Source: Shewanella loihica PV-4
GTDB lineage: Bacteria > Pseudomonadota > Gammaproteobacteria > Enterobacterales > Shewanellaceae
Direction of reading: 5' to 3'
Length of the DNA: 64,000 bases
NCBI RefSeq assembly: GCF_000016065.1
Contig: NC_009092.1
Location: 3,162,001 to 3,226,000 of the forward strand
Part shown: in pieces, positions 15,096 to 63,958 of the stretch
How positions within the stretch are numbered: position 1 is the first letter of the stretch
Layout: the number at the start of each line of letters is the position of its first letter
The notes under the pieces: model-generated
What the model was told of the DNA's origin: nothing
Database searches by the model: none
What the model saw: the letters and a program-made list of their open reading frames with translations, nothing else
Made by a program: the position numbers and the translations under genes

Positions 15096-16094
15096 ATGCA
15101 TAAAAGGGATGACGAGTCCATGGGATTAACCAAGCGAGCAGCAAAGTTGCTACAGGCAAGTCCTGGGCAGACTGCTGGCCTGAAGAGTCAAATAGGTCGA
15201 CTCGCACGCATCACTCTTGGGCCCTCCTTGTCACTAGCCCATACACTCGCGCTTACACTCACGCTTACATTTGCCCTAACACTCAGCGCTAACGCCGCCT
15301 CCTGCGAACTCACCATGGGCTATCGCACCAGCGAGCGCCTGCCTTACATACATGCCGAGCCGAATAACCAAGGGCTCTATCTCGCCCTGTACCAGAAGGC
15401 GGCAGAGCGGATCGGTTGTACCCTCAAGGTGCTCAGGGCTCCCAAGAAGCGGATACTCAGAGAAATGCGTCTGGGCAAGGTGGACTTTTATCCGGGCTTT
15501 GGTTTTACACAAAAGCGTAATCAGTACAGCTACTTCATTGCCAATGGCCTCTATGAGCGTTACACAGGGATCAGCCACAAAGACCTAGCACAAATCAGCT
15601 CCCTTAACGAGTTGGTCGGCACCCCCTATGTGCTACTCATCTCACCCGGGGGCTATGATCTCGATGGTATTCCTAAGGGCATAATCACCCGTCGTCCGCC
15701 GGAGATGGATGCCGCCCAGGCCTTTGAGCTACTGATTGCCCGCAAGGGCGACTTCTTCAGCTATGATGAGACCACCTTAAGGTTTGAACTGGCCCACCAT
15801 CCCCATCCCGAGCTCAAGCTTCACCCAGAATGTTGCGAGCCAATGCGCGACATGTACCTGGGATTTTCACGGGCGAGTCGCTATTTTAAGGCCTCACCCA
15901 ATCCTGATTACGATCCCAGCCAAGCCGAATCCATCGCCAACAGAAGACTGTTGTTGATGCCCGGCAGTAAGGCTCACGCCCTGGCCGACGAACTGGAGAG
16001 AATGCGTGCCAGCGGTGAGACAGAAAGGATAAGAGAGAGCTTTTTCGCGCCAAGCCAAGCCACTGACATGACTTCTGCCTCACACAGTCAATGA
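15096..16094 (+). CDS. periplasmic substrate-binding-protein-like protein
   Basis: A 332-residue protein starting at the ATG at 15096, five bases after AAAAGGG. After a long charged N-terminal tail comes a hydrophobic segment LALTLTLTFALTLSANA ending in a signal-peptidase-like site near residue 68, then a type-3 solute-binding-like domain: CELTMGYRTSERLPYIH, LYLALYQKAAERIGCTL and GKVDFYPGFGFTQKRNQYSYF. Such orphan domains often sense or bind small ligands in the periplasm. There is no adjacent permease. ATG at 15120 is an alternative and would shorten the tail. The stop codon lies in a short tandem repeat. Confidence 0.78.
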   Translation: MHKRDDESMGLTKRAAKLLQASPGQTAGLKSQIGRLARITLGPSLSLAHTLALTLTLTFALTLSANAASCELTMGYRTSERLPYIHAEPNNQGLYLALYQKAAERIGCTLKVLRAPKKRILREMRLGKVDFYPGFGFTQKRNQYSYFIANGLYERYTGISHKDLAQISSLNELVGTPYVLLISPGGYDLDGIPKGIITRRPPEMDAAQAFELLIARKGDFFSYDETTLRFELAHHPHPELKLHPECCEPMRDMYLGFSRASRYFKASPNPDYDPSQAESIANRRLLLMPGSKAHALADELERMRASGETERIRESFFAPSQATDMTSASHSQ

Positions 16095-16155
16095 CTTGAA
16101 TGGCTTGAGTGACTGGATAATGGCTTGAACAACGGCTTGAGCAATAGCTTAGGCA
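16091..16155. repeat. degenerate tandem repeat spanning the stop codon, period 12
   Basis: Units built on ATGGCTTGA: three exact 12-bp-period copies (16120-16131, 16132-16143, 16144-16155) and two irregular ones before, the first of which includes the TGA stop of the preceding gene. Confidence 0.75.
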
Positions 16156-16326
16156 GTGCCTGCGACTTTATTGTGTCACAATCTGCGTTTATGCTATGAC
16201 TGGCTATAAGCTAAGACCAAATCCAAGCTTGGCCTGTTGCATCGATAGCTAACTAGACTAAACTGCGTCGGTGAAGGCTAATGGATGGGCAAAACGGAAT
16301 GTGTAAATTGGCATGAGGAAACAAGG

Positions 16327-16458
16327 ATGAACTCACTACTCAAGGCATGGGATGCCACCCCCGAATTACTAAAACCACTTATAGCTCTGGCGTTGTTGGG
16401 ACTCTTGTGTCTCACCGCATTTTTCTTCGGCCAGTTGATCGGCCTGATGCTCTACTAA
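16327..16458 (+). CDS. 43-residue single-pass membrane protein
   Basis: A short ORF with a strong ribosome binding site (GAGGA, 7 nt upstream) encoding MNSLLKAWDATPELLKPL followed by an uninterrupted hydrophobic helix (IALALLGLLCLTAFFFG) and a short tail. It reads as a real small inner-membrane protein of unknown role. It faces the SYLF-like lipoprotein gene convergently. The corresponding stretch next to the second lipoprotein copy shows no such ORF. Confidence 0.62.
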   Translation: MNSLLKAWDATPELLKPLIALALLGLLCLTAFFFGQLIGLMLY

Positions 16459-16484
16459 GCGCTAACGAATCCTCAGGCTAACAT

Positions 16485-16509
16485 CAATCGCCAGACGCGC
16501 TGGCGATTG
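16485..16509. terminator. convergent-gene hairpin, copy 1
   Basis: Perfect 10-bp stem CAATCGCCAG/CTGGCGATTG with loop ACGCG between the small membrane gene and the lipoprotein gene. It lacks a long T-run on either strand. A near copy follows the second lipoprotein. Confidence 0.6.
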
Positions 16510-16526
16510 TCTCGGCAAGGCAGAGA

Positions 16527-17114
16527 TCACTGCCGGTTTTGCATGAAATCTTCGCTGAAGTCGGTCGGCCAGTACTTATAGCCTTGTACGGTCGCCTGCG
16601 CCGCCGCCCCCATCAAGTTAACCTGATAGGTTTTTACGCCGTCGAGATCCACCGACTGATTGGCCGATACCTGATCGCCACTCTCCTCATATTTGGCACT
16701 GGCCTCCGCCTGAGCCTGGCCCTCATAGCCTGAGTCCTTAAATCTTTTCAGCGCATCAGGCTTCATGAAGGCCTGCACGAAGGCCACCTGTTTCCAGCCG
16801 ATCCCGGCACCAACGCCGCCTGTCGCAAAACGATAGTAGCTGTTCTTTCCGCCTTCGCTCAGAACACAGATGCCGCCCCCCGTAGATAGCGCAAACAGAT
16901 AACTGTTGCTGCCGGTACAGACTACGTGAGCAACCGAGTTCGCCACCGCGCGCTTAGCCCCCGGATGCTTTGCGTAGATACTTGTCAACGCCTCCTGGGT
17001 CTCCTGACGAGCATTGGCCTTCTTCGCCTCGGGCGTATTGCCTGTAGCGCAGCCAGCAACAAGTGTTACCCCGATAAAAGCCAAAAGTGTTTTTCTTGTC
17101 GAAATTGTAAACAT
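16527..17114 (-). CDS. SYLF-like (Ysc84-type) lipoprotein, copy 1
   Basis: Lipoprotein of 195 residues with signal peptide and lipobox LVAGC, so Cys22 should be lipidated; Ala-Thr after it favours the outer membrane. The mature part contains YYRFATGGVGAGIGWKQVAFVQAFMKPDALKRF, which fits the lipid-binding SYLF/Ysc84 pattern. Two more Cys (VVCTG, GICVL) are conserved between the copies. A close paralogue of equal length lies upstream at 17572. Function is unknown; a role in envelope lipid binding is inference. Confidence 0.82.
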   Translation of the reverse strand: MFTISTRKTLLAFIGVTLVAGCATGNTPEAKKANARQETQEALTSIYAKHPGAKRAVANSVAHVVCTGSNSYLFALSTGGGICVLSEGGKNSYYRFATGGVGAGIGWKQVAFVQAFMKPDALKRFKDSGYEGQAQAEASAKYEESGDQVSANQSVDLDGVKTYQVNLMGAAAQATVQGYKYWPTDFSEDFMQNRQ

Positions 17115-17461
17115 ACCAACTCTCTATTAACGCCTGCGCGAAATACGCAAAATAAATTTAAACAATTGAATTTTAATAAAATATTTTATTGCCACGTAAT
17201 ATATCCAGGCATTAAAACAATGCAAAACAGATGGTCAATTGTGAGAGCTCAGCAGCAAATCTACCCGATGAAATAATAGATAAGCCTAAAGTGTATGAGT
17301 GATGCAGATAGTTAGAAGGATGGTACATCCAAGGTAATTAGCCAGAGTCGATACAAGCTAATGGATGAGCTAAACGAAATGAACTAATCGGGATGAGCTA
17401 AATGGGTGAATCAAACGAAACGAGTAGTCAGTTAAATAGCTGTCGCTAGGCCAACACTAGA

Positions 17462-17491
17462 GCTAACGCTAACGCTAGCGCTAAAGCTAAA
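17462..17491. repeat. hexamer array GCTAAC/GCTAAA, five units
   Basis: Five consecutive 6-bp units: GCTAAC, GCTAAC, GCTAGC, GCTAAA, GCTAAA. It lies 80 bp past the stop of lipoprotein copy 2. Confidence 0.75.
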
Positions 17492-17528
17492 ACTGAATAC
17501 TAAGAGTGAAAGTTAATCAGACTCGCCT

Positions 17529-17555
17529 GCAATCGCCAGTCAGACTGGCGATTGC
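17529..17555. terminator. hairpin downstream of lipoprotein copy 2
   Basis: Perfect 11-bp stem GCAATCGCCAG/CTGGCGATTGC with loop TCAGA, the duplicated counterpart of the hairpin at 16485. No long T-run follows. Confidence 0.6.
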
Positions 17556-17571
17556 CTTGGCCAGATAGCCG

Positions 17572-18159
17572 CTACTTATCTTTCTCGATGAAATCATCGG
17601 TAAAGTCTGTCGGCCAGTATTTATAGCCTTGCACCGTCGCCTGCGCCGCCGCCCCCATCAAGTTGATCTGATAGGTTTTCACCCCATCGAGATCCGCAGA
17701 TTGATTGGCCGACATCTGATCGCCACTCTCCTCATACTTGGCGCTCGCTTCCGCCTGGGCCTGACCCTCATAACCAGAGTCCTTGAATCGCTGCAGCGCG
17801 TCTGGCTTCATGAAGGCTTGCACGAAAGCCACCTGTTTCCAGCCAATCCCGGCGCCGACGCCGCCCGTCGCGAAGCGATAGTAGCTGTTCTTGCCGCCTT
17901 CACTGAGCACGCAGATGCCGCCACCCGTCGATAGCGCAAACAGATAACTGTTGCTGCCGGTACAGACCACGTGAGCAATCGAACTCGCCACGGCCGATTT
18001 AGCAGCAGGATGCTCGGCGTAGATACTCGCAAGGGCCTCCTGGGTCTCCTTACGGGCATTTTCCTTCTTCGCCTCGGGCGTATTGCCTGTGGCACAACCG
18101 GCAATGAGTGTTACCAAGATAGCCGCCATAAATGGCGTTTTCATCGACAATGTAAACAT
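17572..18159 (-). CDS. SYLF-like (Ysc84-type) lipoprotein, copy 2
   Basis: Paralogue of the 16527 gene, also 195 residues. The two proteins are almost the same from GCATGNTPEAKK to the C-terminal YKYWPTDF, differing mostly in the signal peptide and last residues. The start is ATG 18159, which gives MFTLS aligned to copy 1 (MFTIS) and has GAGGGG six bases upstream. Lipobox LIAGC. Both copies run leftward and are spaced 1,045 bp apart, so one arose by tandem duplication. Confidence 0.82.
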   Translation of the reverse strand: MFTLSMKTPFMAAILVTLIAGCATGNTPEAKKENARKETQEALASIYAEHPAAKSAVASSIAHVVCTGSNSYLFALSTGGGICVLSEGGKNSYYRFATGGVGAGIGWKQVAFVQAFMKPDALQRFKDSGYEGQAQAEASAKYEESGDQMSANQSADLDGVKTYQINLMGAAAQATVQGYKYWPTDFTDDFIEKDK

Positions 18160-18340
18160 CCTTATCCCCTCATTCATTTCAGCATTAATATTTGAAATAA
18201 CACTAATTTATAGAAGTGAAAATCCAATAAATCAAATTGGTGCCGAACAAAATTCATCCAGGAATGAAAGCCCTACAGAGACCCAGCCGATGCGAACGCC
18301 ACCGCCATTTTGCTCACTTAGACAATGCAAAGCTCATGAG

Positions 18341-18403
18341 ATGTTAAGGCTAGGGATATTAAGGCTAAGGGATGTTAAGGCTAAGGGATGTCGAAACTAA
18401 AAA
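18341..18403. repeat. tandem repeat ATGTTAAGGCTAAGGG, about four units
   Basis: Period 15-16 bp: units start at 18341, 18356, 18372 and 18388, the last degenerate. It lies in the 462 bp between the divergent lipoprotein and ModA-like genes, which otherwise hold no gene. Confidence 0.75.
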
Positions 18404-18530
18404 ATGTTGAGAAAAAGGGAAAGCTAAGCAGTGGTTAATAAAGGCTGTTCATAAGTGCACCATCCATAACTTGGTAAATCCAAGGCGCGACATTTTGTCT
18501 CGCCCACCACTTAATTCAGCGATCCCTGTA

Positions 18531-18544
18531 GCAAGTTAACTTGC
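18531..18544. promoter_or_regulatory. palindrome GCAAGTTAACTTGC
   Basis: Perfect 14-bp palindrome 78 bp before the ModA-like gene, placed where an operator would be. The regulator is unknown; it does not match the ModE consensus that I know. Confidence 0.4.
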
Positions 18545-18621
18545 CGCCTAAAGCCGTCTATTGCCCAGGGGCTAAATCTCGGGTTTGATAGGCCAATCTA
18601 TGACAAACAGGGATTTTAATC

Positions 18622-19428
18622 ATGAAATATCAGTGGTTTCTAGGCACGCTTTTCATCGCAGGCATGAGCACTCAAGTGATCGCTCATGAGGCGCCCATCG
18701 AATTTCGCGCCGCCGGCAGCCTCAAGGCCGCCATGACAGAGGTGATTGGCGCCTATCAGGCCAAGGGCCATAGCGAGGTTGCCCCTCAGTTTGCTCCATC
18801 TGGACTGCTTAGAGCGCGTATCGAATCCGGTGAGAAGGTGGATCTCTTTGCCTCGGCCAACATGAAGCATCCTACTACTTTGAGCCAAGCTTCCCGCAGC
18901 GGCGATGTGGTGATGTTTGCCCGCAACAAGCTCTGCGCCCTTGCGCAGCCTGAGGTTGAACTCTCAAGCGATACTCTGCTGACCCAGATGCTCAATAGCA
19001 AGATACGTCTTGGCACCTCTACCCCTAAGGCAGACCCCGCCGGTGACTACGCCTTTAAGGTGTTCGAGCGCGCCGAGGCCATCTCATCCGGCGCCCAGCA
19101 GCAGCTGGAAACTAAGGCACTTAAGCTAACCGGCGGCCCGGACAGTGCTAAGCCACCTAAAGGCCGTAATCCCTACGGCTGGGTGATGGAGAACAAGCAG
19201 GCGGATATCTTCCTCACCTACTGCACCAACGCCGTGCTGGCGCAGAAAGAGGTCAAGCCCCTCAAGATAGTGCAGCTGCCTGAAAACCTCAGTGTCGGCG
19301 CCAACTACGGCCTGACCGTCATTCAGGATGCGCAGCCCCATGCCGCAGATCTGGCGCTCTTTATCCTGTCACCACAGGGGCAGAAAATTCTGGCCAGCTA
19401 CGGCTTCGATACTCCAACTCTGCCCTAG
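18622..19428 (+). CDS. ModA-like periplasmic substrate-binding protein
   Basis: 268 residues with a signal peptide ending near VIAHE. The mature start FRAAGSLKAAMTEVI and the motifs SGEKVDLFASANM and ARNKLCAL are typical of the ModA (molybdate/oxyanion) branch of type-2 binding proteins, in which the first Ser contacts the anion. No modB/modC neighbours exist here; the gene is flanked by unrelated genes. The ligand may be molybdate, tungstate or another species. The stop codon sits inside a 17-bp tandem repeat. Confidence 0.82.
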   Translation: MKYQWFLGTLFIAGMSTQVIAHEAPIEFRAAGSLKAAMTEVIGAYQAKGHSEVAPQFAPSGLLRARIESGEKVDLFASANMKHPTTLSQASRSGDVVMFARNKLCALAQPEVELSSDTLLTQMLNSKIRLGTSTPKADPAGDYAFKVFERAEAISSGAQQQLETKALKLTGGPDSAKPPKGRNPYGWVMENKQADIFLTYCTNAVLAQKEVKPLKIVQLPENLSVGANYGLTVIQDAQPHAADLALFILSPQGQKILASYGFDTPTLP

Positions 19429-19474
19429 CAACTACTCAGTCCTAGCAACTCCGCTTCCTTAGCAACTAAGTCCT
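19424..19474. repeat. 17-bp tandem repeat spanning the ModA-like stop codon
   Basis: Three units of 17 bp beginning CCTAGCAACT, CCTAGCAACT and CTTAGCAACT at 19424, 19441 and 19458. The TAG stop (19426-19428) is part of the first unit. Confidence 0.8.
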
Positions 19475-24687: not shown

Positions 24688-24759
24688 GTCTAAAAATGGA
24701 CCTGAGTCTAAAATTGGACCTGAGTCTAAAAATGGACCTGAGTCTAAAGTTGGGCCAAC
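24688..24759. repeat. 18-bp tandem repeat, four units
   Basis: Four 18-bp units starting GTCTAAA at 24688, 24706, 24724 and 24742; the first and third are identical, the second differs by one base and the fourth is diverged. It occupies the space between the small OMP stop (24780) and its terminator. Confidence 0.88.
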
Positions 24760-24779: not shown

Positions 24780-25310
24780 CTAAAACTGATAATGCACGCC
24801 TAGATAGACATTACCCCAGTCGCTTTCCACCTGCTCATCGAGCCCGGTCGCATCGAGATCGGTATAGAGCATCTCATAGGCAATACGCACGTTAATGCCA
24901 TTGTCGAAAGCCATGTTAAAGCCAGTGCCCCACAGCCAGCCATTGCCGTCATAGTCCAGATCGGCCTCGACCTTAGTAGCCGCCATACCCGCCTTGATGA
25001 ACATAGAGTAAGTATTATTGAAATAGTGGTGGAACTTGGCCGCGATAGACAGCTGATTGGCCTTCACATCCCCCACATCGACAAAGTTGTCGGTGCGAAC
25101 ATAGGTGCTCTCGACGGCGAAGTTTTTACTGAAATAGTAACCGCCATAGAGACCATAACTGATGGCCGACTCGTCAAATTCTCCCGCCTCTAGCGTGGAA
25201 TGACCCGCCATGGCCCCCAGGTAATACCCCTTAATATCGGCAACCGCCATCGCAGATCCCGATGCGATAAGACTCGCCAAACACAGTGCCAGCATAGATG
25301 CGCGCTTCAT
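24780..25310 (-). CDS. small outer-membrane beta-barrel protein
   Basis: OmpA-like/OmpW-sized eight-strand barrel of 176 residues. Signal peptide KRASMLALCLASLIASGSAMA, then GYYLGAMAGHSTLEAGEF, repeated YGGYYFSKNFAVESTYVRT-like strands and a terminal GVHYQF with C-terminal Phe. Start ATG 25310 has GGGGGAA upstream, and an in-frame upstream extension would spoil the signal peptide. No ligand is evident. It is followed by an 18-bp repeat and a terminator. Confidence 0.86.
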   Translation of the reverse strand: MKRASMLALCLASLIASGSAMAVADIKGYYLGAMAGHSTLEAGEFDESAISYGLYGGYYFSKNFAVESTYVRTDNFVDVGDVKANQLSIAAKFHHYFNNTYSMFIKAGMAATKVEADLDYDGNGWLWGTGFNMAFDNGINVRIAYEMLYTDLDATGLDEQVESDWGNVYLGVHYQF

Positions 25311-25449
25311 GCTTCCCCCGGAAACGAAACATTTACAAGTAGCTAACATACTAGACCAAAAATCGCATTAAATTAAGTCTTTAATTGCCGCTTTGATAAA
25401 AAACCAACCAAGCTTTGCCCGCTCAGCAAATAGGTAGAATCCAGGGCAT

Positions 25450-30363: not shown

Positions 30364-31740
30364 ATGAAAAGCATCAGACAATGGACTTTGCTCCTGCTCA
30401 TTGCCCTTTCACAGTCACTGCTTACCCCTTCAGTGTCGCGGGCAGAAGACGCTGTTCAAGAGATCCAGTTTAGCGATGCCGAGCTTGCGCAGATGCTGGC
30501 CCCCATCGCCCTGTATCCCGACAGCCTACTCACCCACATTTTAATTGCCTCCACCTATCCGCTAGAGGTGGTGCAGGCCAATCGTTGGCGCAACAAAAAC
30601 AAGTCGTTAGAAGGCGCTGAGGCGGTTAACCGCGCTGAGAAAAAGGACTGGGATCCCAGCGTCACCGCCTTGGTCGCCTTTCCCGACCTGCTGCAACGCC
30701 TGAGTGACGACCTCGAGTGGACTCAGAAGCTGGGCGACACCTTCTTGCAAGACGAGGAGCGAGTGCTGGACAGCATTCAGAGCCTGAGACAGCAGGCCGA
30801 GCGCGCCAATGCCTTCGACGACATGGAGAATATGAAGGTCACTAAGGTCAATCGCCAGATCGTTATCGAACCTGTGCAGCGAGAGGTGATCTATGTGCCT
30901 TACTATGACACCCGAGTGGTCTACGGCCATTGGCATTGGTACAACTACCCGCCAGTATATTGGGCCTATCCGCCCCATTATGCCCGTTACTACCCGGGTC
31001 ATATTTCGGGACACTTCTACTTCAACAGCGGCATACATATCAGCTTTAACTACTTCTTCAGTGCGTTTAGCTGGCGTCAGCGTCACATAGTGGTGACCCA
31101 TCACCATCATACGACTCGCTACCGCCCCTATAGCCGAATCGTGACCAGCAGCGGCGCCCAACGTTGGCACCACAAGCCGGTCCACAGACACGGTGTGGCG
31201 TATCGCTCGCCAAAGGTTAAGGCCCGCTACGACAAGTATCGTCCTAACCGCTATGACGTAAAACACAATAGCAGCATGGAGCGCTATTCCAATTCAAAGC
31301 AGGCCAAGCCGAGTCAGGCCAAGCACTATAACGCGGCGCAGGTTCAAAAGCGCCGCGAGCAGAACTTCAGCCATAAGCTGAGCGATGCACGCAGCCAGCA
31401 TGACCGTCATCAAAATGCGCAAAAGACACCGACCAAGTATTATGAGAAGCGCGACCGACTCAGCCTGAATGACAAGGCCAATCGCTCGTCGAGCAATAAA
31501 GCCGACAACAGGACAAAAGAGTGGAATAGAGAGAAGAGCCCTCAGCGAAACGACAGCTATCAGCGTGAGATGAAGAGCCATCAGCGCGACAACAAGAGTC
31601 ATCAACAGCAAAGCTACCAAAGAGAGAGGAGCCATCAGCCAGTGAAGAGCCCTCAGCGGGAAAGGAGCCATCAGACCAATAACGGTCGCGGCGCCTCATC
31701 TCACAACCAACAGGGCCGAACTAAGCAACGTGATAACTAA
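30364..31740 (+). CDS. DUF3300 family exported protein
   Basis: 458 residues. Signal peptide LLLIALSQSLLTPSVSRA, then the DUF3300 domain: AELAQMLAPIALYPDSLLTHILIAS, MENMKVTKVNRQIVIEPVQREVIYVPYYDTRVVYG. A Tyr/His/Trp/Pro-rich segment follows, and the C-terminal third is a low-complexity basic region with repeated SHQ/SPQ-R-E/D blocks. The family's function is unknown. The last units of a tandem repeat overlap the coding end. It is 160 bp after phoQ with its own ribosome binding site (TAGGAGAC). Confidence 0.88.
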   Translation: MKSIRQWTLLLLIALSQSLLTPSVSRAEDAVQEIQFSDAELAQMLAPIALYPDSLLTHILIASTYPLEVVQANRWRNKNKSLEGAEAVNRAEKKDWDPSVTALVAFPDLLQRLSDDLEWTQKLGDTFLQDEERVLDSIQSLRQQAERANAFDDMENMKVTKVNRQIVIEPVQREVIYVPYYDTRVVYGHWHWYNYPPVYWAYPPHYARYYPGHISGHFYFNSGIHISFNYFFSAFSWRQRHIVVTHHHHTTRYRPYSRIVTSSGAQRWHHKPVHRHGVAYRSPKVKARYDKYRPNRYDVKHNSSMERYSNSKQAKPSQAKHYNAAQVQKRREQNFSHKLSDARSQHDRHQNAQKTPTKYYEKRDRLSLNDKANRSSSNKADNRTKEWNREKSPQRNDSYQREMKSHQRDNKSHQQQSYQRERSHQPVKSPQRERSHQTNNGRGASSHNQQGRTKQRDN

Positions 31741-31783
31741 GCGACAAGTTGCTAAGTAACTAAATAGCTAAGTAGGGAGCGGT
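31721..31783. repeat. CTAAG tandem repeat spanning the DUF3300 stop codon
   Basis: Four units starting CTAAG at 31721, 31737, 31752 and 31768 (spacing 16, 15, 16). The first codes for the last residues and the TAA stop (31738-31740) opens the second. Confidence 0.75.
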
Positions 31784-31890: not shown

Positions 31891-31922
31891 CTAAATCTAC
31901 CAGCGTCTTAATCTACCAGCCT
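31891..31922. repeat. 16-bp direct repeat spanning the YgjV-like stop codon
   Basis: CTAAATCTACCAGCGT (31891-31906) and CTTAATCTACCAGCCT (31907-31922) are adjacent near-copies; the second contains the stop codon and last codons of the minus-strand gene. Confidence 0.8.
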
Positions 31923-32420
31923 AGGGCGCCACGGCAAGCCATAGAAGCGGTAGTAGCCCACCAGATTACTGCCGATAAACAGCAGCTCCATCACCACAGC
32001 CGTGGGCGAACCCACCAAATAGTTGTTAAGCAGCCAGATGCTGGTACCCACTAACATCAGCTGTCTCAGGCCTTGATCCCTTGGACAGAAGGCGGCGATG
32101 GTCTGAGTACAGCTGCCGGCAAAACTTATCAGGCTCAGGGGGCCGGCATAGGTAAATAGGGCAATCAAGCTATTAATCCCCAGAAACAGCCAGAGTAGGC
32201 GCCGCGAGTGTGAAAATACGGTCACCAGGTAGCGAATCGCGGCGACCAACATGAGCCCGGCGGCCGTCCACTGGAGCAGCAGCGCAAAATGAACGCTGAT
32301 TAATACCCCAGACAGTGCGAGGCAGAGCACTATGTGGCGCTTCTGCTTGAATTGAAAAGAGAGAATGTCTGTAACGATCGCCACAGCGATCAAACATTGA
32401 GAGAGAAGAAACAGCGACAT
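31908..32420 (-). CDS. YgjV-like inner-membrane protein
   Basis: A 170-residue protein with about six hydrophobic segments and no soluble domain, matching the YgjV family (LSFQFKQKRHIVLCLALSG, YTAGPLS-like loop, MELLFIGSNLVGYYRFYG). The family's function is not established. ATG 32420 follows AGGTGTGT; an in-frame ATG six bases upstream is less well placed. Monocistronic by appearance. Confidence 0.75.
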   Translation of the reverse strand: MSLFLLSQCLIAVAIVTDILSFQFKQKRHIVLCLALSGVLISVHFALLLQWTAAGLMLVAAIRYLVTVFSHSRRLLWLFLGINSLIALFTYAGPLSLISFAGSCTQTIAAFCPRDQGLRQLMLVGTSIWLLNNYLVGSPTAVVMELLFIGSNLVGYYRFYGLPWRPRLVD

Positions 32421-32641
32421 ACACACCTAAGATTTCAACATGCGAAAGATGGAGCTAGTATGGTTCAGCCTTGATTCAAGGCGCATTAACTTAAGATAAG
32501 CCGGCAAGAATCTTTTCGGTGCTTATATGTACTAGCTTATACCAAGGCATGGAAAGTGTCGCACCGCTATCTTTTCACCTATATCAACAAGTCTATCTTT
32601 TTAAACTAGTGCTCCTCATTCCTCCCTCTCATCAGTTAGTC

Positions 32642-34913: not shown

Positions 34914-35489
34914 GTTATTAGTCACTCTTATTGTTAGCTTTTTAGGGTAAATCGCCCTCTCCCTGGCGTCTGCGCTTCCTTTCGGGCGAATAACAACATT
35001 ACCTATTGAGATAAAATATTCTGTATACAATATACTCAAATAAAAATAGGAGTAAACCCAAATGTGAATATTTTGTAAATCCGTAATTTCACAGAGACAC
35101 TGGGTTGCAGTGACACAACGGCAACTCAGCTCAAAGCTAAAGAGACAAAGAAGTATGTTGATTGAACGGGGAATATTGCTGGCTAAGTGGTAGGTGGCGT
35201 CAGCAAAGATTTATAGTATCAGACTGATTTTATTAAGGTAAATACATTAAAAAGGCACAAGATAGCACAAGTGCGATCGCCTGACGCGCAACAAGAGAAA
35301 AGCGTCGCCAAAAATAACGCACTACCAAATAGAAAGCGCAGACAAATAGAAAACGCAGAAAAAGAGAAAGCGTAGACAAAGAGAAAGCGCTGCTAAAGGT
35401 AAAGCGTTGGCAGCAACTCGACTCGACCTAATGGGCTAAATATTTGGGCTTGTCTAGCGCCTTACTTCCCTGCTATCGACCATGACCCA
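34914..35489. other. gene-free region between protease and Cys-motif protein genes
   Basis: 576 bp. The right part is mostly a 17-bp tandem array (35292-35410). The left part, near 34914-35060, is AT-rich and should hold the protease promoter. Nothing else was recognised. Confidence 0.6.
35292..35410. repeat. 17-bp tandem array, seven units
   Basis: Seven units in exact 17-bp register, starting at 35292, 35309, 35326, 35343, 35360, 35377 and 35394, with consensus near CAAAGAGAAAGCGCAGA. The third and fourth units differ by a single base; the outer ones are more diverged. It lies 80 bp past the stop of the minus-strand gene at 35490. Confidence 0.9.
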
Positions 35490-36260
35490 CTAATAGCCAG
35501 TCTGGGCACCGGCCCTCGCCCTGAGCAGTTTAAACTTATGAAATCCCAGGTTTCTCAGCCTTTGTAGTTCGAAATCTATCATGCCCTGCATTTCTCTCGC
35601 CTTAAGATCTTGGGAACACTTAAACTCGCCCCCCAGCCCCTTATTAAACTTAGAGATAGACTTGTAACAGATTCGCGCCGGACAGGTGTAGGCACAACCT
35701 GCATTGGCAAACAAACGAATACGATCTTTCTGCGCCAAGGCCGCCAAGAAGGCCTCATCATCGTTGAGCACCATAGGAAGCACCAGGGTATCGTAGAGCC
35801 CAAAGGCCTCTTCGATCTGCTCAGGTTTTAGCAGGTTCTTTATCACGCTGGCTTCGATGTCATAGTCGGGAAATTCCTGCTTGATCCAGTAAGCGAGGTC
35901 ATCGTTTGTGCAGATAATAGAGTTGCGCTTGTGATGATACTTAGCCAGCAAGGCGCGATTGGCGTCGAACTCCTCCTTGGTGGCAAAGTGATTGGTAAAG
36001 GGAATTCTAAGCCCAATACCATGATCCGCCAGCAGGCCCGTGTCCCGCTCAGACAGCTGACGCATCAGATAGAAACGTCCGCCATATAGGGTCGATGGCT
36101 CGACGAAACCAAATACACTCTCAATCTGCCCAAGGGGCACCGCGGCAAAGTTTTGTTTTAAAAACTTAATCACTGACTGATGATCCGCCTTGCCCCGCGC
36201 CGACACAGTATAAGTGCTCTTAGGTGCCGTGCTCTCGCTTCCCGCTGGCTTGTCGCTCAT
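35490..36260 (-). CDS. protein of unknown function with CAYTCPARICYK motif
   Basis: 256 residues; I do not recognise a named family. It begins MSDKPAGSESTAPK, with a flexible start. Visible features are LYGGRFYLMRQLSERDTGLLADHGIGLRIPFTNHF in the first half, IICTNDDLAYW near 112, and LFANAGCAYTCPARICYKSISKF near 190 followed by a lone Cys in EFKCSQD. A Cys-x3-Cys-x4-Cys cluster behind an alpha/beta-rich domain recalls Fe-S or zinc ligands in U32-peptidase-like and related TIM-barrel proteins. A metal cluster is inference. No signal peptide; likely cytoplasmic. Confidence 0.75.
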   Translation of the reverse strand: MSDKPAGSESTAPKSTYTVSARGKADHQSVIKFLKQNFAAVPLGQIESVFGFVEPSTLYGGRFYLMRQLSERDTGLLADHGIGLRIPFTNHFATKEEFDANRALLAKYHHKRNSIICTNDDLAYWIKQEFPDYDIEASVIKNLLKPEQIEEAFGLYDTLVLPMVLNDDEAFLAALAQKDRIRLFANAGCAYTCPARICYKSISKFNKGLGGEFKCSQDLKAREMQGMIDFELQRLRNLGFHKFKLLRARAGAQTGY

Positions 36261-36441
36261 ATCACTCGCTTTATTAACCTTTAGATAACAAAACAATATA
36301 GAGATCCAGTCCTACTGACTCCTTGATGTAGATCAAATCACAATGACTGCCTACAACTCTTCAAGAGGGATATAGTCGTTTACTTTTCCCCAACCCCAAG
36401 GATATGATGCAAAAGTATTAATCAGATGTTAAAGGAATGAC

Positions 36442-38523
36442 ATGTACCGCACCATTTCGACTCTCTTTTGCTTAGGAATCCTAAGTGCTTGCGCATCAAC
36501 CAACACTAATCCCTCCTCCTCCGAGAAGACGAATAATTCGTCTATCGATCTACAGGTAGAAAGTTCAACACTGACAAGCGAGAATAAGTTAACACTTGCC
36601 AAGCAACTCTATGAGAGTGCTCAGCCCGAAAAAGCACTCAAACTATACCAAGAGGCTGCCAACGAGGGGCTACCGAGAGCTCAGAGTGAGTTAGGATTAA
36701 TCTACGACGTTGGCGCGTTAGGTACTAAAGAAGACAACGAACTTGCATTTAAGTGGTATCTAAAAGCCGCAAAACAGAAGGACACTCAAGCCTTAATCAA
36801 CCTCGCAGCTTTTTATCGAAATGGTGAGTTTGTCGAACAAGACCTAGATCAAGCGATAGATTACTATCGGCAAGCTATATCCTTGAATGATCCAATAGCA
36901 TTTTGCGAATTAGGATTTCTCTATTTAGACGAACCGCTCAAAAAAGACTTACAACTGGCCGAGACAAACTTTCTACTCGGTGCTAACCAACAACAAACCT
37001 CCTGTTATCTAGGTTTGGCCTATCTATTTCACTTTGAAAAAGACAAGGTTAAGCAATCATTAAAGTGGTACCAACTCGCTGCCGACGCGGGTGATGCATC
37101 GGCTCAATACAACTTAGCCACTCTATATTTCGACGGCATTGCCACCGAAGTAGATCCAAAGCAGGGCATACATTATCTCCAATTGGCTGTAGAGCAAAAC
37201 CATGGCTCAGCCACTGGCTATTTAGCCAATATGTATGACTTCGGTTGGTTTGTAGAACAAGACAAAAAGTTAGCCATACAACTTTATCAGAGAGCAGCAG
37301 AACTAGGTGATGCGGGGTCCATGGTTAACTTAGCGACTTTTTTTGAGTCAGGGCAATTCGTTCCTCAAGATATTGATATGGCTCTACAGTTATACCAACT
37401 TGCGGCTCAACAAAATAATGCCCTAGCGCTTAATAACATGGCTTCTATCTACTTCAACGGCGAATACGTCGAACGAAATACTGAATTAGGGCTAGAACTT
37501 TTCAATAAAGCGGCGACCATGAATAATACCCAAGCTTTATATAACTTGGGCATCATCTATCGAGATGGGAACACGGTTAAACGGGACAGAGCTAAAGCCT
37601 TGTCCTTTTTTCAACAAGCAGCAGATCTCGGCTTAGAGAGAGCCTATTTCGAAGTAGGTAAAGCCTATCATTTAGGCTTAGGAACAGAAAAAAATGATCA
37701 ACTTGCACTTCCCTACTTATTAAAAAGTGCAAATAACAATTCATTGGCAACCCACTACCTTGGGGTCATCTACTATAAGAGCGATTTAATCGAGCATGAT
37801 ATCGATAAAGCAATTACTTATTTTGAGAAAGCCTATTCACAAGGAGAAATTGACCCGACCGCTAGCTTAGGTCAAATCTACGAATTTGGCAGCCCTAGTC
37901 ATCATGATGTCGACCTAGCCATCGCTTGGTATAAGAAAGGTATAAAGGGAGAACACCCTTATGCTTATATGCGGTTAGCTTTACTCTATATGAATGGAGA
38001 AGGCGTGGCTAAAAACATGCAACATGGCCTTGAACTCTACTCCACCTATTGCAAGTTGCGAAAGTATAACGAAAACATGAAGCTTGGAAACCTCTTCTTC
38101 TTTGGCAATCAGATTAAACAGGACTACCAACAAGCCCGTTATTTTTACGAATTGGCACTTAAGCAACAAGATTCAACCGCCGCCAATAACCTTGGCGAGA
38201 TGTATCGCCTAGGTCTTGGTGTTGAGCAAGATATTGAGCAAGCTATTAGCCTCTATCAATCCGCCGTAGAGTGGCATGGCCAAGCAACGGCCATGTTAAA
38301 TCTCAGTGAACTTTATCTCGAGGGTGAAGGCGTCCCAGTCGATGAGAAGCTGGGATTATCTTGGTTAAAAAAAGCGGCTGAAACTGACAATAGTGAGGCC
38401 CAATATAGATTAGGGAAATATTTGCTCGACAGAAACGTTACTTCTGCGGGAAAAATCTGGATGAGTAGAAGTGCGGATGCTGGAAATGAAAAAGCAATAG
38501 AGTATCTGCAACAAAAGCTATGA
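36442..38523 (+). CDS. Sel1-repeat lipoprotein
   Basis: 693 residues. An N-terminal lipoprotein signal (TLFCLGILSACAS) is followed by a long solenoid of about 17 Sel1-type tetratricopeptide-like repeats of 36 residues, each with an A-xx-LG-xxY-xxG-x-V-xxD-xxxA-xxxYxxAA pattern. Such solenoids bind partner proteins; here it should be anchored in the envelope facing the periplasm. The coding sequence is visibly more AT-rich than the neighbouring genes. ATG 36442 follows AAAGGA. A terminator follows directly. Confidence 0.9.
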   Translation: MYRTISTLFCLGILSACASTNTNPSSSEKTNNSSIDLQVESSTLTSENKLTLAKQLYESAQPEKALKLYQEAANEGLPRAQSELGLIYDVGALGTKEDNELAFKWYLKAAKQKDTQALINLAAFYRNGEFVEQDLDQAIDYYRQAISLNDPIAFCELGFLYLDEPLKKDLQLAETNFLLGANQQQTSCYLGLAYLFHFEKDKVKQSLKWYQLAADAGDASAQYNLATLYFDGIATEVDPKQGIHYLQLAVEQNHGSATGYLANMYDFGWFVEQDKKLAIQLYQRAAELGDAGSMVNLATFFESGQFVPQDIDMALQLYQLAAQQNNALALNNMASIYFNGEYVERNTELGLELFNKAATMNNTQALYNLGIIYRDGNTVKRDRAKALSFFQQAADLGLERAYFEVGKAYHLGLGTEKNDQLALPYLLKSANNNSLATHYLGVIYYKSDLIEHDIDKAITYFEKAYSQGEIDPTASLGQIYEFGSPSHHDVDLAIAWYKKGIKGEHPYAYMRLALLYMNGEGVAKNMQHGLELYSTYCKLRKYNENMKLGNLFFFGNQIKQDYQQARYFYELALKQQDSTAANNLGEMYRLGLGVEQDIEQAISLYQSAVEWHGQATAMLNLSELYLEGEGVPVDEKLGLSWLKKAAETDNSEAQYRLGKYLLDRNVTSAGKIWMSRSADAGNEKAIEYLQQKL

Positions 38524-49882: not shown

Positions 49883-49923
49883 TACTCACTATGTCTCTCA
49901 CCTTGAAAACAAGATTTTAAAGC

Positions 49924-49993
49924 AGAGACACTTAGTCAGAAACATTAGGTCAGAGACATTAGATAAGAGACATCAAGTAATAGACGTTGAGTC
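49924..49993. repeat. 14-bp tandem repeat, five units
   Basis: Five units in exact 14-bp register at 49924, 49938, 49952, 49966 and 49980, consensus near AGAGACATTAGGTC, with a sixth decayed unit reaching 50007. It lies directly downstream of the porin stop (50018, minus strand). Confidence 0.9.
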
Positions 49994-50017: not shown

Positions 50018-50773
50018 TTAGAAACGACCGACTACGCCAAGACCTATGTTGACACCGTCGAAATCTGAATCCAATACGCGAGCCAATTCGAAGTTAGCCG
50101 AGACGTTGTCAGAAATACGTAGCCAGTACGCGGTTCTCACGTCGAATGCATCATCATCGTCGGTGTTGGTGTAACCCAGACCCACAGACCAAGAATTGTT
50201 CACATACCAGTCTGCACCCAGATTGATCATGTCGTCGCTGTCGCTGTGAGTCCAGTTAGCCTGCAGATCCACACCGGCAGTAGATTGTAGCGCGATATAG
50301 CTGCGAACCTTCACACCATAGCTCTCTTCCACGCCTTCATCACCATCGGCATAGAAGACAGACACAGCTGAAGAGTCGTTGAAGTAGTAACCCACTTCTG
50401 CGCCATAGGTGTCGAAGTCAAAGTTAGCATAGTCGTGCTTGTTATAGTTCACGCCAACAAACCACTTAGAGGCGAATACATAAGTACCATCGATACCGTA
50501 AGAGTCCAGGTCGGCATCGTCGAAGTTGCTGTAATAAGCACCCAGGTTAGAGCTTTGCGCCAGGAAGCCATTTAAAGCATATGGGCTGCTTTTCTGATCC
50601 ACTGGCGTCACATAGTAGCGGTAGTTCGCGTTCCAGATACCATCGCCAAACTCTTCAGAGTTAGACTTATAGTTCAAACCGGCTTCGTGTTGAAAGGCAT
50701 TGTCCTGGGCAGCGATGGCGCTCATGCTGCTAAGACCAAGAAGAATGGCAACGGCTGTTACTGATTTTTTCAT
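50018..50773 (-). CDS. putative porin (Shewanella-type outer-membrane barrel)
   Basis: 251 residues with a signal peptide (KSVTAVAILLGLSSMSAIA). The mature protein is acidic, full of short amphipathic strands (WNANYRYYVTPVDQ, WFVGVNYNKHDYANFDFDTYGAEVGYYF), and ends in GLGVVGRF with a C-terminal Phe. This is the pattern of the putative-porin family common in Shewanella. ATG 50773 is preceded by AAGGGA. The substrate is unknown. Confidence 0.82.
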   Translation of the reverse strand: MKKSVTAVAILLGLSSMSAIAAQDNAFQHEAGLNYKSNSEEFGDGIWNANYRYYVTPVDQKSSPYALNGFLAQSSNLGAYYSNFDDADLDSYGIDGTYVFASKWFVGVNYNKHDYANFDFDTYGAEVGYYFNDSSAVSVFYADGDEGVEESYGVKVRSYIALQSTAGVDLQANWTHSDSDDMINLGADWYVNNSWSVGLGYTNTDDDDAFDVRTAYWLRISDNVSANFELARVLDSDFDGVNIGLGVVGRF

Positions 50774-51213
50774 CAATGTATTCCCTTATATTTATGAAGC
50801 TAGGAGAATAAAAGACAAAAAATAGAAAGGTGTTTTACACAATCCATTGTAAATTTATGATATTTATGAGAATAAATATCCTGCGCTCTCCTAGCGGCGC
50901 TAACGATACGCCATAGTTTAGGAAAAGTGCAATAAAAACTTCATAAAAGCCAAGCAATAAAACATTAACAAAAACAATGAGCAACAAATAGATAACAAGT
51001 GATACCTAAAGATTACACTTCGCCCCCCTGACCCAAAGACACCCTGCTGCTTGCTCTCGTATTCTCATAAGCCACTAATTTTTAGAGACCACTAATCCTA
51101 AGACGCTTTAACCTTATCGGAAATTAGTGCTCGGCTAACAGCGGCGCTGGGCAGCTAGTTGCTCAGGGCAATCTTGGGCTCTGGGTAGTCAGTTGCTCTA
51201 GTTCTATTTAGCG
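50774..51213. other. gene-free region between porin and DUF599 genes
   Basis: 440 bp. The part near the porin is AT-rich promoter-like sequence. Near the DUF599 stop are two 33-bp-spaced near-copies beginning CTGGGCAGCTAGTTGCTC (51148) and CTGGGTAGTCAGTTGCTC (51181). Nothing else was recognised. Confidence 0.55.
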
Positions 51214-51945: not shown

Positions 51946-52472
51946 GGATTCAACTTGTTAACAAGGGGCAAAGTGGCCAATAGCTGCCAAGATTCATTTA
52001 ATCATAGCCCATTGATATTGCAACTCAATTTCCTCGTATCTTAATGCCTAATTGGTGTGGTTGTGCGCAATCACTCCCTCAGGCGGCTCATTGCCAGCAA
52101 AAGCATGACAGTTGGCAGTTGGCAGTTGGCAGTTGGCTGCTGGCTATAAGGTGCAGTTAAATGGGTGCAAGCGAGAAAAGCGCAGGCAAATTAGAACCGA
52201 TCCCAATGCCTGCATATTCGAGCATTTCTGCTGGCTTATCGTCGGTTTATCTGAATCCTCGCCCCGTTAAGGCCACCTTCTCGATGCAATCGGCTACAAA
52301 CTGGTGTGAAAACGAGTAGGAAAACACAAGAGCGTCCGCGACTTAGGCTATACCTGCATGCAATTCTTAGCTAAGATGGTCAAGAAATTGTTACACCCAT
52401 GTTTTCCGGCATGAGACCCGTTAACAATTGCAACGTCACCAAACACAAGAGTTTAATAATAAAGGATTATTT
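51946..52472. other. gene-free region before the S41 protease gene
   Basis: 527 bp. It holds a 7-bp microsatellite (52110-52137) and, close to the protease gene, AATTGTTACA (52386) and GTTAACAATTGCAAC (52420-52434), related to the palindrome before the TonB receptor at 54809. No ORF of note. Confidence 0.55.
52110..52137. repeat. AGTTGGC microsatellite, four exact copies
   Basis: Four perfect 7-bp units in tandem. A 7-bp period in non-coding DNA could vary by slippage without affecting a protein. Confidence 0.9.
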
Positions 52473-60154: not shown

Positions 60155-60235
60155 CTTTTGACCCCCTAGATCAAGTAACCCATTAAACACCGGCAATGTC
60201 GCTACAAGCGCCGTTCCCGGTGACGAGCCTCCCCT

Positions 60236-60943: not shown

Positions 60944-60989
60944 CCTGTTATCTTTGGCATTCCTTTTTCATCTTCAAGTGAGTCAACTT

Positions 60990-61526
60990 ATGCGCCTGCT
61001 GAAATCCACTATCCATCCCGACCTTAATGCCGCCACGCCAGAGGAGGTAGCCGGACAGGGCTTCATCCGCCGCGCGGCGCGGGCCATAGTGCTCAGGGGC
61101 AGCCAAATATTGATGCTCTACACGGCGCGATATCACGACTACAGTGTTCCCGGTGGCGGCGTGGATGAGGGCGAAGATATTCGTCAGGCACTGCTTAGGG
61201 AACTGGAAGAGGAAACCGGCGCCCACACTATTGAGATATTGAGCGAGTTCGGCCGCTACCAGGAGTTTCGCCCCTGGTATAAACCCGAATTCGATTTTGT
61301 GCAGATGGAGTCTTACTGCTTCGTCTGCGAAATTGGTGAGGAGCTGGGCGATACTAAGCTTGAGAGCCATGAGCTACAAAACGGCATGCACCCTGTCTGG
61401 ATAGAGATTCATGAGGCGATCGCCCACAACGAGCACACCATGGCCCATAGCGAGAAGAAGGGATTGTCTATCGAGCGCGAGACCTATCTGCTACGGCTGA
61501 TCCGCGATGAACTGCTCACTTGCTAA
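60990..61526 (+). CDS. Nudix hydrolase
   Basis: 178 residues. The Nudix box is GGGVDEGEDIRQALLRELEEETG near residues 55-77 with the full G-x5-E-x7-R-E-x2-E-E-x-G pattern. It hydrolyses a nucleoside diphosphate linked to another moiety, with Mg2+; the substrate is unknown. ATG 60990 is preferred over an in-frame start at 60954, since the extra residues show no family character. It lies 46 bp after trmK, probably co-transcribed. Confidence 0.88.
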   Translation: MRLLKSTIHPDLNAATPEEVAGQGFIRRAARAIVLRGSQILMLYTARYHDYSVPGGGVDEGEDIRQALLRELEEETGAHTIEILSEFGRYQEFRPWYKPEFDFVQMESYCFVCEIGEELGDTKLESHELQNGMHPVWIEIHEAIAHNEHTMAHSEKKGLSIERETYLLRLIRDELLTC

Positions 61527-61574
61527 ACTGCTCACGAATTAGAGTCATCTCAAGATCCCCCGCCGTAAACCCAC

Positions 61575-61602
61575 AAAAAAAGAGCGCCGCAGCGCTCTTT
61601 TT
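61575..61602. terminator. bidirectional terminator
   Basis: A7-GAGCGC-CGCA-GCGCTC-T5 between the convergent Nudix and psuG genes. Confidence 0.92.
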
Positions 61603-61620
61603 AATACCGATAGCTAGCAA

Positions 61621-62535
61621 TTAACGGCTGTACTCGCAGGCGATCTGCGCCGCCAGCTTGGCGTTGTTAAACACCAGCTGGATGTTGGCCGCCAGGCTGC
61701 TGCCCTCTGTCTTCTCGGCCACCTTGGCCAACAAGAAAGGCGTAGAGGCCTTACCAGAGATCCCCTTGGCGTCCATCTCGGCCACCGCATCTTTAATCAC
61801 CTGGTCGATCATCGCCTTATCCAGGGCATACTCGGCAGGAATAGGATTAGCAACCACCACACCGCCCTTGAGGCCCATCTGCCACTTGGCCGTCATCGCA
61901 TCGGCCACCTGCTTAGGGGTGTCCAGACGATAGTCGACGCCGAAGTCGCTCTCACGGGTGTAGAAGGCGGGAAGCGTCTCAGTTTCATAACCGACGACCG
62001 GCACCCCTTGGGTCTCTAAGTATTCCAGGGTCAGGCCGATATCCAGAATCGACTTGGCACCGGCGCAGACCACGGCCACATCGGTATTAGCCAGCTCCTG
62101 CAGGTCGGCAGAGATATCGAAGGTCTGCTGGGCACCGCGATGCACGCCGCCGATACCGCCGGTAGCAAACACCTTGATGCCTGCCATCGCCGCCAAAATC
62201 ATGGTCGACGCAACCGTGGTCGCGCCATCGGCCTGCTTAGCCACGATAAAGGGGATGTCGCGGCGGCTGGTCTTGATCACCGCCTGACCCGCCTTACCCA
62301 GATACTCGATCTCATCATGAGTCATGCCCACCTTGAGGCGTCCCTTGAGGATGGCGATGGTGGCAGGAACCGCGCCGTTATCACGAATGATCTGCTCCAC
62401 CTTGAGGGCGGTCTCGACGTTTTGCGGGTAAGGCATACCGTGAGAGATGATGGTCGACTCCAGTGCCACCACGGGACGACCGGCTTCCAATGCCGCTTTC
62501 ACTTCTGGGTTGATATCTAGGTACTGCGCTAACAT
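61621..62535 (-). CDS. psuG: pseudouridine-5'-phosphate glycosidase PsuG
   Basis: 304 residues. Splits pseudouridine 5'-phosphate into uracil and ribose 5-phosphate in the cytoplasm. N-terminal [52 protein letters not shown] and [28 protein letters not shown] are diagnostic of the family; the catalytic Lys lies in the CAGAKSILD stretch. It overlaps psuK by 7 bp, so the two are translationally coupled and act in sequence. Confidence 0.95.
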
Positions 62536-63620
62536 AGAGACTCCTTGATAACTCGGTTAACTGATATTTCAGACATGTTTGGGTTGATCGTTGCCAGATC
62601 CGACAGGGCGACAACCGCCGCCGCCATGGCAAACTCGGTCGACTGACGGGTCGACCAGCCTTGCATAAAGCCGTGGGCCAGGCCCGCCAGGAAGGCATCG
62701 CCGGCGCCGTTGGCGTTGACCATCTCCACCGGAATGGCCGGAATATGGGCCTGCTCCTCACCGTCGCTGTAGAAGACACCGTCGATGCCCAGGCTCAGGA
62801 AGACGCGCTTAACCCCCTGCTCGTGGAACCAGTTCGCCAGCACTGGCAGCTCACCATAGTTGGCGATGGAGATCCCAGAGAGCTGCTCGGCCTCTTTAAG
62901 GTTCGGCTTGAGGGTATGCACGGCGCCTAGATAGGGCTTAATCTTCTCTGCCTTGGCGCAGGAGACGGTATCGACAAACAGCGGGATGTCGGCGAAGTTG
63001 CTCAGCAGATAGGCCAAGGCCGCCTCGGACAGGTTGGCATCGATAATCGCCAGGCTGGCGCGCTTGAGCATCTCCTGTTGACTCTTGAGCTGCTCGACCC
63101 CGAGACGCTCCAGAATCGCCATGTCATTGATCGCCACATGCATGTCGCTGTCGCCGTCGAGCACAGAGAGGTAAGTGGAGGTCACGCCATCGCTTAGCTG
63201 CAGGCTGGGCTTCATGTCGATGCCGGCGCGCTGACAGTGCTCGACGATCTGCTGGCCGTAGGCATCTTTGCCCACGGCGGTCATCAGGCGGGTATCCGAG
63301 CCCAAACGGGCCAGGTTCTCGGCGATGTTACGCCCCACCCCGCCGGGGCTACAGCTGACGCTCCCCGGGTTGGAATCCCCCACCCGCAGGCTAGACGCCG
63401 GACGACCGAGAATATCCATGTTGGCACCGCCAATCACCATGGCATACTTGGCTTCGGCCAGGATATAGCCCTTGCCACGAATCACTCCCTTGTTGGTGAG
63501 ATTCATGATATGCCCCGCCACGGCGGAGCGGCTGATCCCTAAACGGTCGGCCAGCTCCTGCTGAGGGATCAAAGGGTCTTGCTTGAGTAGTGCTAAGATT
63601 TCTAATTCACGTTCCGTCAT
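62529..63620 (-). CDS. psuK: pseudouridine kinase PsuK with N-terminal winged-helix domain
   Basis: 363 residues. The PfkB-type sugar-kinase domain has the N-terminal [27 protein letters not shown] and the C-terminal [16 protein letters not shown] with the catalytic Asp. In front is a winged-helix unit of about 55 residues ([34 protein letters not shown]), as in several kinase-regulator fusions of this group. It phosphorylates pseudouridine for PsuG; the HTH may autoregulate the operon. It is the first gene of psuK-psuG. Confidence 0.93.
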
Positions 63621-63877
63621 TTAGGCGATCTCACTAAGCAATAGGTAATGTGTGCATGGGTAGTGTCTGGCTATGCAAAGCTATAGCAAGCAAATAAAAA
63701 GCGACAAACAAATGTTTGCATACCAAACTTTTGTTTTACGTTAATCGATTTCGCCAGCGAGCGCAAGGTAAACAAAATCGGAATCAAGTGGTTATGTGAA
63801 GTTCGCCACACAGCCCTGCAAGCTATTTCCCAATCGGAGAGGCACTTTGGCGTCAGCAAGCACTAACTTTCGAGCAT
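63621..63877. other. region upstream of psuK, no gene seen
   Basis: About 260 bp, AT-rich near psuK with the promoter presumably there. TGTTTGCATACCAAACTTTTGTTT (63711 on) has repeated TTTGT/ACAAA words but no clean palindrome. Confidence 0.4.
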
Positions 63878-63900
63878 AAAAAAAGCGCCGAATAGGCGCT
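63878..63900 (-). terminator. terminator for the gene entering from the right edge
   Basis: AGCGCC-GAATA-GGCGCT stem with A7 on its left in plus orientation, i.e. T7 on the minus strand, 51 bp past the stop at 63951. Confidence 0.9.
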
Positions 63901-63918
63901 CATTAATTGACGGACGAC

Positions 63919-63958
63919 AGCTTAAACTAGAGCTAAATAGCTTAAGCTGCTTAACGCT
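63919..63958. repeat. 10-bp degenerate repeat adjoining a stop codon
   Basis: Units AGCTTAAACT, AGAGCTAAAT, AGCTTAAGCT and GCTTAACGCT in 10-bp register; the last covers the stop codon of the partial gene. Confidence 0.6.

Follow-up and report, generated by a model that had tools for sequence, protein, structure and literature searches.

The spacers between the genes of the marine bacterium Shewanella loihica PV-4 are rich in short, degenerate tandem arrays, each with a sequence of its own. Their density peaks behind stop codons and in convergent spacers, and their units cluster at 12-17 bp. We describe them from a window of 64,000 nucleotides (positions 3162001-3226000 of the 4,602,594 bp, one-contig genome) and from a genome-wide sample that includes it. 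An original prediction, made from the letters of the window, had listed nine tandem repeats at or past stop codons and offered two explanations, a process that locally duplicates the 3' ends of genes or a selected feature of the 3' untranslated region. The local duplication is borne out. We give a probability of about 70% to the arrays being neutral, locus-specific minisatellites, which slippage makes and which selection clears from genes and start-proximal DNA. A function at the stop codon is not needed. The feature is real, genome-wide and of a known kind; what is worth following is the size band and the difference between clades.

Abundance and position of the arrays

The sample consists of 80 stretches of 20 kb and the window, 1.664 Mb or 36% of the 4.6 Mb genome. 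Genes were called with our own codon-model finder and from long open reading frames (ORFs), which gives exact stop positions and inexact start positions. Arrays were detected with Tandem Repeats Finder (TRF), using a minimum score of 30 for individual loci in the window and of at least 50 or at least 44 genome-wide. We also collected a second, TRF-free set of 186 loci with units of 12-20 bp.

At a score of at least 50 the spacers of the sample host 123 arrays (30 convergent, 71 co-directional and 22 divergent), while 20 dinucleotide shuffles hold a mean of 0.65, an excess of about 190-fold. A score of at least 44 yields 169 arrays, which would correspond to about 467 in the whole genome. The copies within an array are degenerate. 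At a score of at least 50 all spacers taken together carry 0.578 arrays per kb and the remaining sample, which is mostly genes, 0.058 per kb, a tenfold difference. Spacer orientation matters as well, with densities of 1.10, 0.56 and 0.35 per kb in convergent, co-directional and divergent spacers respectively (score of at least 50, unsplit sequence).

The predicted concentration at gene ends holds as a bias, not as a rule. In the TRF-free set 30 of 971 stop codon edges are crossed by a locus and 3 of 1033 start codon edges; the TRF arrays scoring at least 44 give 31 and 4. Array coverage within 80 bp is 0.054 after stops and 0.020 before starts, a ratio of 2.7 in the genome-wide sample. Misplaced starts would cause some coding DNA to be counted as spacer and so dilute the start side, but stop-edge crossings cannot arise in this way. 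Per kb of half-spacer the TRF-free loci number 1.81 in convergent spacers, 0.80 in the stop halves and 0.56 in the start halves of co-directional spacers, and 0.60 in divergent spacers.

Along the genome the density varies from 0.65 to 1.15 per kb of spacer in seven groups of stretches. The first group (L002-L011, sampled from the first 537 kb) has 0.13 arrays per kb, that is 3 in 23.3 kb of spacer. In stretch L012 (1070-1335) exact GTGCCA repeats fill about 266 bp of a called gene; they are listed at period 12 as the scan started at 7.

Unit size and junctions

Periods of 12-17 bp account for 112 of the 169 spacer arrays scoring at least 44. We counted tandem duplications in PV-4 spacers of 100-1500 bp, using far lags within those spacers as the control and including multiples of shorter units. 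Exact duplications of 8-11 bp are about as frequent as expected (10 observed, 9.4 expected), while those of 12-17 bp number 30 against 0.8, those of 18-23 bp 4 against 0.0 and those of 24-30 bp 1 against 0.0. When up to 12% mismatch is allowed the corresponding figures are 67 against 45, 75 against 5.4, 11 against 1.5 and 3 against 0.7. The upper edge of the band is thus sharp and the lower edge softer. A TRF-free spectrum of 6-mer lags agrees, with lags 12-16 at about 4 times expectation and no other lag between 5 and 35 above about 2.6 times.

Four other species (G086, G087, G013 and G015), pooled at 12% mismatch, show 18 duplications against 1.4 expected at 12-17 bp and 1 against 0.6 at 18-23 bp. 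In the three closest relatives, genomes whose ancestry is common with the window, these classes number 12 (0.1 expected) and 5 (0.0 expected), and the edge is less sharp.

Genes present a different picture. There, exact duplications of 9, 12 and 15 bp number 28, 10 and 4 where 5.0, 0.35 and 0.21 are expected, 10 bp occurs once (1.3 expected), and none was found at 11, 13, 14 or 16-40 bp. An excess at 9, 12 and 15 bp only is what selection on the reading frame predicts.

Strict two-copy cases allow the junctions to be inspected. Twelve of these in spacers, with periods of 11-17 bp, have 0-9 bp of junction homology, with a mean of 5.3 bp where a random blunt duplication would give 0.77. In 10 of the 12 the homology is at least 3 bp (3-9 bp), which is expected in 7% of cases. 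Filling-in of blunt staggered ends is disfavoured by these spacer junctions; gene cases do not disfavour it.

Turnover between relatives

We compared the window with the syntenic DNA, 80 kb each, of five relatives. Identity over the aligned parts is 94% for the sister species G074, about 88% for G047 and G076, 82-83% for G086 and 74% for G087. Fourteen of the 24 indels of at least 4 bp between PV-4 and G074 lie in spacers and include whole units of 18 bp, 17 bp, twice 14 bp and four times 7 bp; the remainder of the 14 are not all whole units. Copy number thus changes by whole units between close relatives, as is expected of a minisatellite.

How far does the stop bias reflect the general fate of DNA near gene ends? 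In the spacers of the window the share of bases within 80 bp that cannot be aligned is higher at stops than at starts for G047 (0.375 and 0.111), G076 (0.317 and 0.054), G086 (0.522 and 0.108) and G074 (0.070 and 0.032), with ratios of 3.4, 5.9, 4.8 and 2.2. Per unalignable base there is no stop enrichment of arrays in three of the four comparisons. As the unalignable ratio exceeds the coverage ratio in these three, there is no need to invoke a process that targets stops, and the stop bias would mainly reflect relaxed constraint. These ratios do not account for the tenfold difference in arrays that run across the codon itself, behind which tolerance of protein C-termini presumably stands. The arrays are one visible part of why post-gene spacers align poorly between species.

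Density also differs between clades. At a TRF score of at least 50 there are 0.58 spacer arrays per kb in PV-4, 0.72 in G074, 0.58 in G047, 0.36 in G076, 0.26 in G086, 0.25 in G087, 0.17 in G013 and 0.19 in G015, of which only the broad contrast is firm, since each of the five syntenic relatives contributes 80 kb and 3-8 spacer arrays. Escherichia coli K-12 has no spacer array at this score in 39 kb of spacer. Among 80 loci from a scan of genome contigs, three with Shewanella in their titles contain units of at least 11 bp 23 times in 135 kb of spacer, compared with 99 in 200 kb here by the same cruder estimator, and their unit sizes are more scattered than those of PV-4. A stretch of G013, L025, contains a relative of a solute-binding protein with one TGA inside the match, either a broken gene or a sequencing error. 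One gene of the window was looked up among plasmids, where it had no match.

Proposed origin of the arrays

We propose that the arrays form and disappear in four steps. A word of about 3-9 bp that recurs 12-17 bp away would mispair during DNA synthesis, so that the intervening stretch is doubled; this step is suggested by the junctions. From two copies onwards further slips gain or lose whole units, as the differences between the sister species show. Substitutions then accumulate, as is seen at some loci of the window, and several arrays have been lost or have given way to others in relatives that diverge by about 12%. Finally, purifying selection would clear genes, promoters and ribosome-binding sites of arrays, a step that has support. 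Given such selection, the survivors would be densest where spacer is least constrained, after stops and between convergent genes.

Several observations weigh against this account. Stop and start codons differ tenfold in how often arrays cross them, which exceeds any of the turnover ratios, and convergent spacers carry about twice as many loci as the stop halves of co-directional ones; both facts leave room for a mutational part. For G074, the closest relative, the turnover ratio is below the coverage ratio. Coverage between a stop and a terminator-like hairpin (0.079) is nominally somewhat above that after the hairpin (0.052); an association of arrays with terminators, which we considered, is weak on these figures. 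Six two-copy cases in genes have a mean junction homology of 1.0 bp, so that the homology signal comes from spacers; in these, partial third copies are possibly remnants of larger arrays and not the starting homology, and one of the twelve cases, at 18359, sits in an array that TRF counts at 3.3 copies. A size band in which units above 17 bp are so scarce is not what simple slippage would lead one to expect. The pairwise alignments contain 95 indels of 5-60 bp, among which the tandem ones, 7 in spacers (6, 13, 13, 14, 14, 23 and 28 bp) and 8 in genes, some of them one event seen in two pairs, are too few for testing the band.

Could the position of the arrays mark their origin instead of tolerance? 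Termination, or colliding transcription between convergent genes, might stall the replication fork and provoke local duplications at gene ends. The high density of convergent spacers, the tenfold crossing of stops, the somewhat higher coverage ahead of hairpins and the fact that different species have different arrays near the same stop all speak for such a mutational hotspot. However, the unalignable share near stops outruns array coverage in three of four relatives, 38 of the 186 loci lie in divergent spacers, and a terminator-like hairpin is detectable at only 119 of 875 stops, those without one still having a coverage of 0.052; we therefore consider a hotspot unlikely. A selected 3'-end feature, one of the two explanations first offered, appears highly improbable to us; in the form considered here the arrays would provide spare stops, structured RNA or sites for proteins, and so insulate or stabilise the transcript. 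This explanation can draw on the strong stop bias, on slightly tighter folding than in period-preserving shuffles (mean z -0.31, standard error (SE) 0.14, n=121 on the sense strand) and on two words enriched in the units of the 186 loci, AGCCT (21 against 6.6 expected) and CTAAG (17 against 6.2). Yet folding is similar on the antisense strand (-0.23, n=121), and the 128 oriented arrays have no sense-strand bias (GC skew 0.019, SE 0.036; AT skew -0.046, SE 0.035; purine share 0.486), so that strand composition and folding give no convincing signal of an RNA-level feature. The spare stop codons that had been suggested are not enriched either, with 151, 130 and 152 stops by frame, the first being in frame. 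An array lies within 100 bp of only 111 of 971 stop edges, close relatives differ in their arrays, and the loci have almost no sequence in common.

This last point agrees with the earlier observation that each locus has its own sequence: 6 of 14,196 array pairs are similar at E<=0.01 and 1 in a shuffled set, which dismisses a dispersed element. The CTAAG words that had been pointed out are moderately enriched and explain little, as does AGCCT; no word is dominant, and general spacer word statistics yield no single motif that could cause the arrays. In a count by site GATC seemed strongly depleted in arrays, but a count by locus does not list it among the depleted words, and the finding was dropped. 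Chance, or repeats no better than word-rich spacer DNA yields, describes one locus of the window (63919) and nearly a second (31721), but as a general explanation it has next to no prospect in view of the 190-fold excess over dinucleotide shuffles and the peak at lags 12-16 relative to far lags within those spacers.

What the neutral-minisatellite reading leaves unexplained is the 12-17 bp unit size and the richness of the clade. As a tentative suggestion, possible though improbable, Shewanella, and above all the clade of PV-4, may have a duplication process with a built-in ruler, which copies stretches of 12-17 bp that lie between short homologies, and does so much more often than E. coli. 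A short gap left by repair or by a primer, in which the nascent end slips back, might serve as the ruler. An excision-repair patch measures 12-13 nucleotides and a replication primer 10-12. Should the size band be mutational, the spacers would preserve, like fossils, the traces of a duplication process of which the E. coli control gives no sign, and Shewanella would be a tractable organism for finding what sets the length. The several hundred loci per genome (169 in the 36% sample) would also be candidate typing markers.

Loci in the window

The nine repeats first listed were each scanned by lag, with 400 dinucleotide shuffles of their own spacer for comparison. Eight rise above these local shuffles, one of them at the borderline, and TRF lists six. 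Four of the five said to begin at or across a stop do so (16091, 19424, 31721 and 31891), and the fifth is a chance repeat; the remaining supported repeats are found about 30-100 bp beyond a stop. Presence of the arrays in relatives at 16091, 19424, 24688, 31891, 35326 and 49924 was judged by eye, and the anchors in G076 failed for the first two.

A degenerate array of about 12 bp units at 16090..16155 starts across the TGA stop of 15075..16094 (+), with TRF scores of 36 and 43, and no shuffle matches it at lag 12 (0/400); G047 retains it and G074 has 8 bp extra inside. A 17 bp array at 19417..19474 runs across the TAG stop of 18622..19428 (+). It is unlisted by TRF at a score of at least 30 and is unmatched at lag 17 (0/400); G074 has it, and G047 and G086 do not. 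The array at 31734..31775, across the TAA stop of 30364..31740 (+), is weak (TRF 33). TRF gives it a period of 8, as does the lag scan, and the period of 16 first reported is two such units; although no shuffle exceeds it (0/400), it equals the best one and is borderline. The gene it follows is a DUF3300 gene, whose C-terminal part is itself a degenerate 21-bp repeat, longer in G074 by 51 and 24 bp, both multiples of three. The fourth, at 31891..31922 across the stop of 31908..32426 (-), is a 16 bp duplication unlisted by TRF (lag 16, 1/400), with two copies in PV-4 and G076 and one in G074 and G047.

Past the stops, an 18 bp array at 24688..24756 stands about 30 bp beyond the stop of 24780..25349 (-) (TRF 115, 0/400). 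G074 is short by one 18-bp unit (at 24697), G047 is without the array, and in G076 it is not stop-adjacent. A 17 bp array at 35308..35409 (the 35326 locus), 80-180 bp past the stop of 35490..36296 (-) (TRF 95, 0/400), is likewise short by one 17-bp unit in G074 (at 35337) and is gone in G047 and G076, which have another array near the stop of the same gene with a period of 18-19 (TRF 77 and 70). In a convergent spacer, a 14 bp array at 49923..49992 lies past the stop of 50018..50776 (-) (TRF 65, 0/400); G074 is short by 28 bp, or two units (at 49949), G047 is without it and G076 has a trace. Units of about 6 bp, GCTAAC-like, occupy 17453..17497, at a distance of about 75-120 bp beyond the stop codon of the gene 17572..18177 (-) (TRF 56; lag 6, 0/400). 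They are not in G074, where the orthologous spacer is 138 bp and not 1234 bp as in PV-4.

Two arrays in divergent spacers are new with respect to the original prediction. One has 16 bp units at 18340..18410 (TRF 90 for 18340-18391; lag 16, 0/400) and is missing in G074, whose spacer is short; the other has 7 bp units at 52109..52144 (TRF 58 for 52109-52137), and G074 is longer by 28 bp, or four units (at 52108). The repeat at 63919 is unlisted by TRF at a score of at least 30, and shuffles match it in 66 of 400 cases, so we ascribe it to chance and have dropped it. At its place G047 and G076 have an array with a period of 25 (TRF 62).

Two further differences concern genes. The neighbouring genes 16527-17114 and 17572-18177 are paralogous, have no Pfam match and both align to a single place in G074, so that about 1.1 kb was either gained here when a gene was recently duplicated in tandem or lost in G074. 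A gene of 693 amino acids at 36442-38523, which has an atypical composition and was not called by the codon model, resembles a Sel1-type repeat protein by eye; it is not at this place in G074, G047 or G076, and G086 aligns through it.

Comparison with known systems

The original prediction held that no description of such repeats as a class existed. This is not so for the general phenomenon, as prokaryotic minisatellites and intergenic close direct repeats are in print (PMC4060949); for the gene-end bias and the 12-17 bp band our searches of an open-access library turned up no description. New here are the clustering at 12-17 bp, the junction homology in spacers and a density that differs by clade. 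Also in print are prokaryotic satellites (PMC6749651) and small variable segments that arise by slippage between short repeats (PMC2884548), and a survey of short repeats across life reports that units of 6-9 bp are enriched in phyla of prokaryotes (PMC12699852).

The arrays resemble the bacterial minisatellites, or variable-number tandem repeats (VNTRs), of strain typing in their head-to-tail imperfect copies, units above 10 bp and copy numbers that differ between relatives. Unlike typical VNTRs, they have a gene-end bias and a 12-17 bp band across many unrelated loci of one genome, and their variation is seen between species. A close match is the report that in the intergenic DNA of prokaryotes, though not in their genes, most 10-mers repeated within 50 nucleotides are over-represented (PMC4060949). 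It treats the same phenomenon in general form, and our excess in spacers, far smaller in genes, agrees; we did not find unit-size distributions or positions relative to stops in the text examined, and the word Shewanella is missing from the main text.

Other repeats differ more clearly. Dispersed elements of the repetitive extragenic palindromic (REP) or bacterial interspersed mosaic element (BIME) type share sequence between loci, which the PV-4 arrays do not. Borg repeats, as portrayed in PMC9879509, have perfect, A-enriched units, about half of them in ORFs, whereas the PV-4 arrays are degenerate, without strand bias and tenfold denser in spacers. The TAACTGA heptamers of Beggiatoaceae likewise form many sets of intergenic direct repeats in one bacterial genome; according to PMC4679880 they have one common word and lie mostly just upstream of starts, whereas the PV-4 arrays have no dominant word and lower coverage before starts than after stops. 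De novo tandem duplications in a beta-lactamase gene, some of them bordered by short direct repeats, have been ascribed to replication slippage (PMC4169377), as we propose here. That study followed selected events in one gene, whereas the record in PV-4 is unselected, spans the genome and shows a size band.

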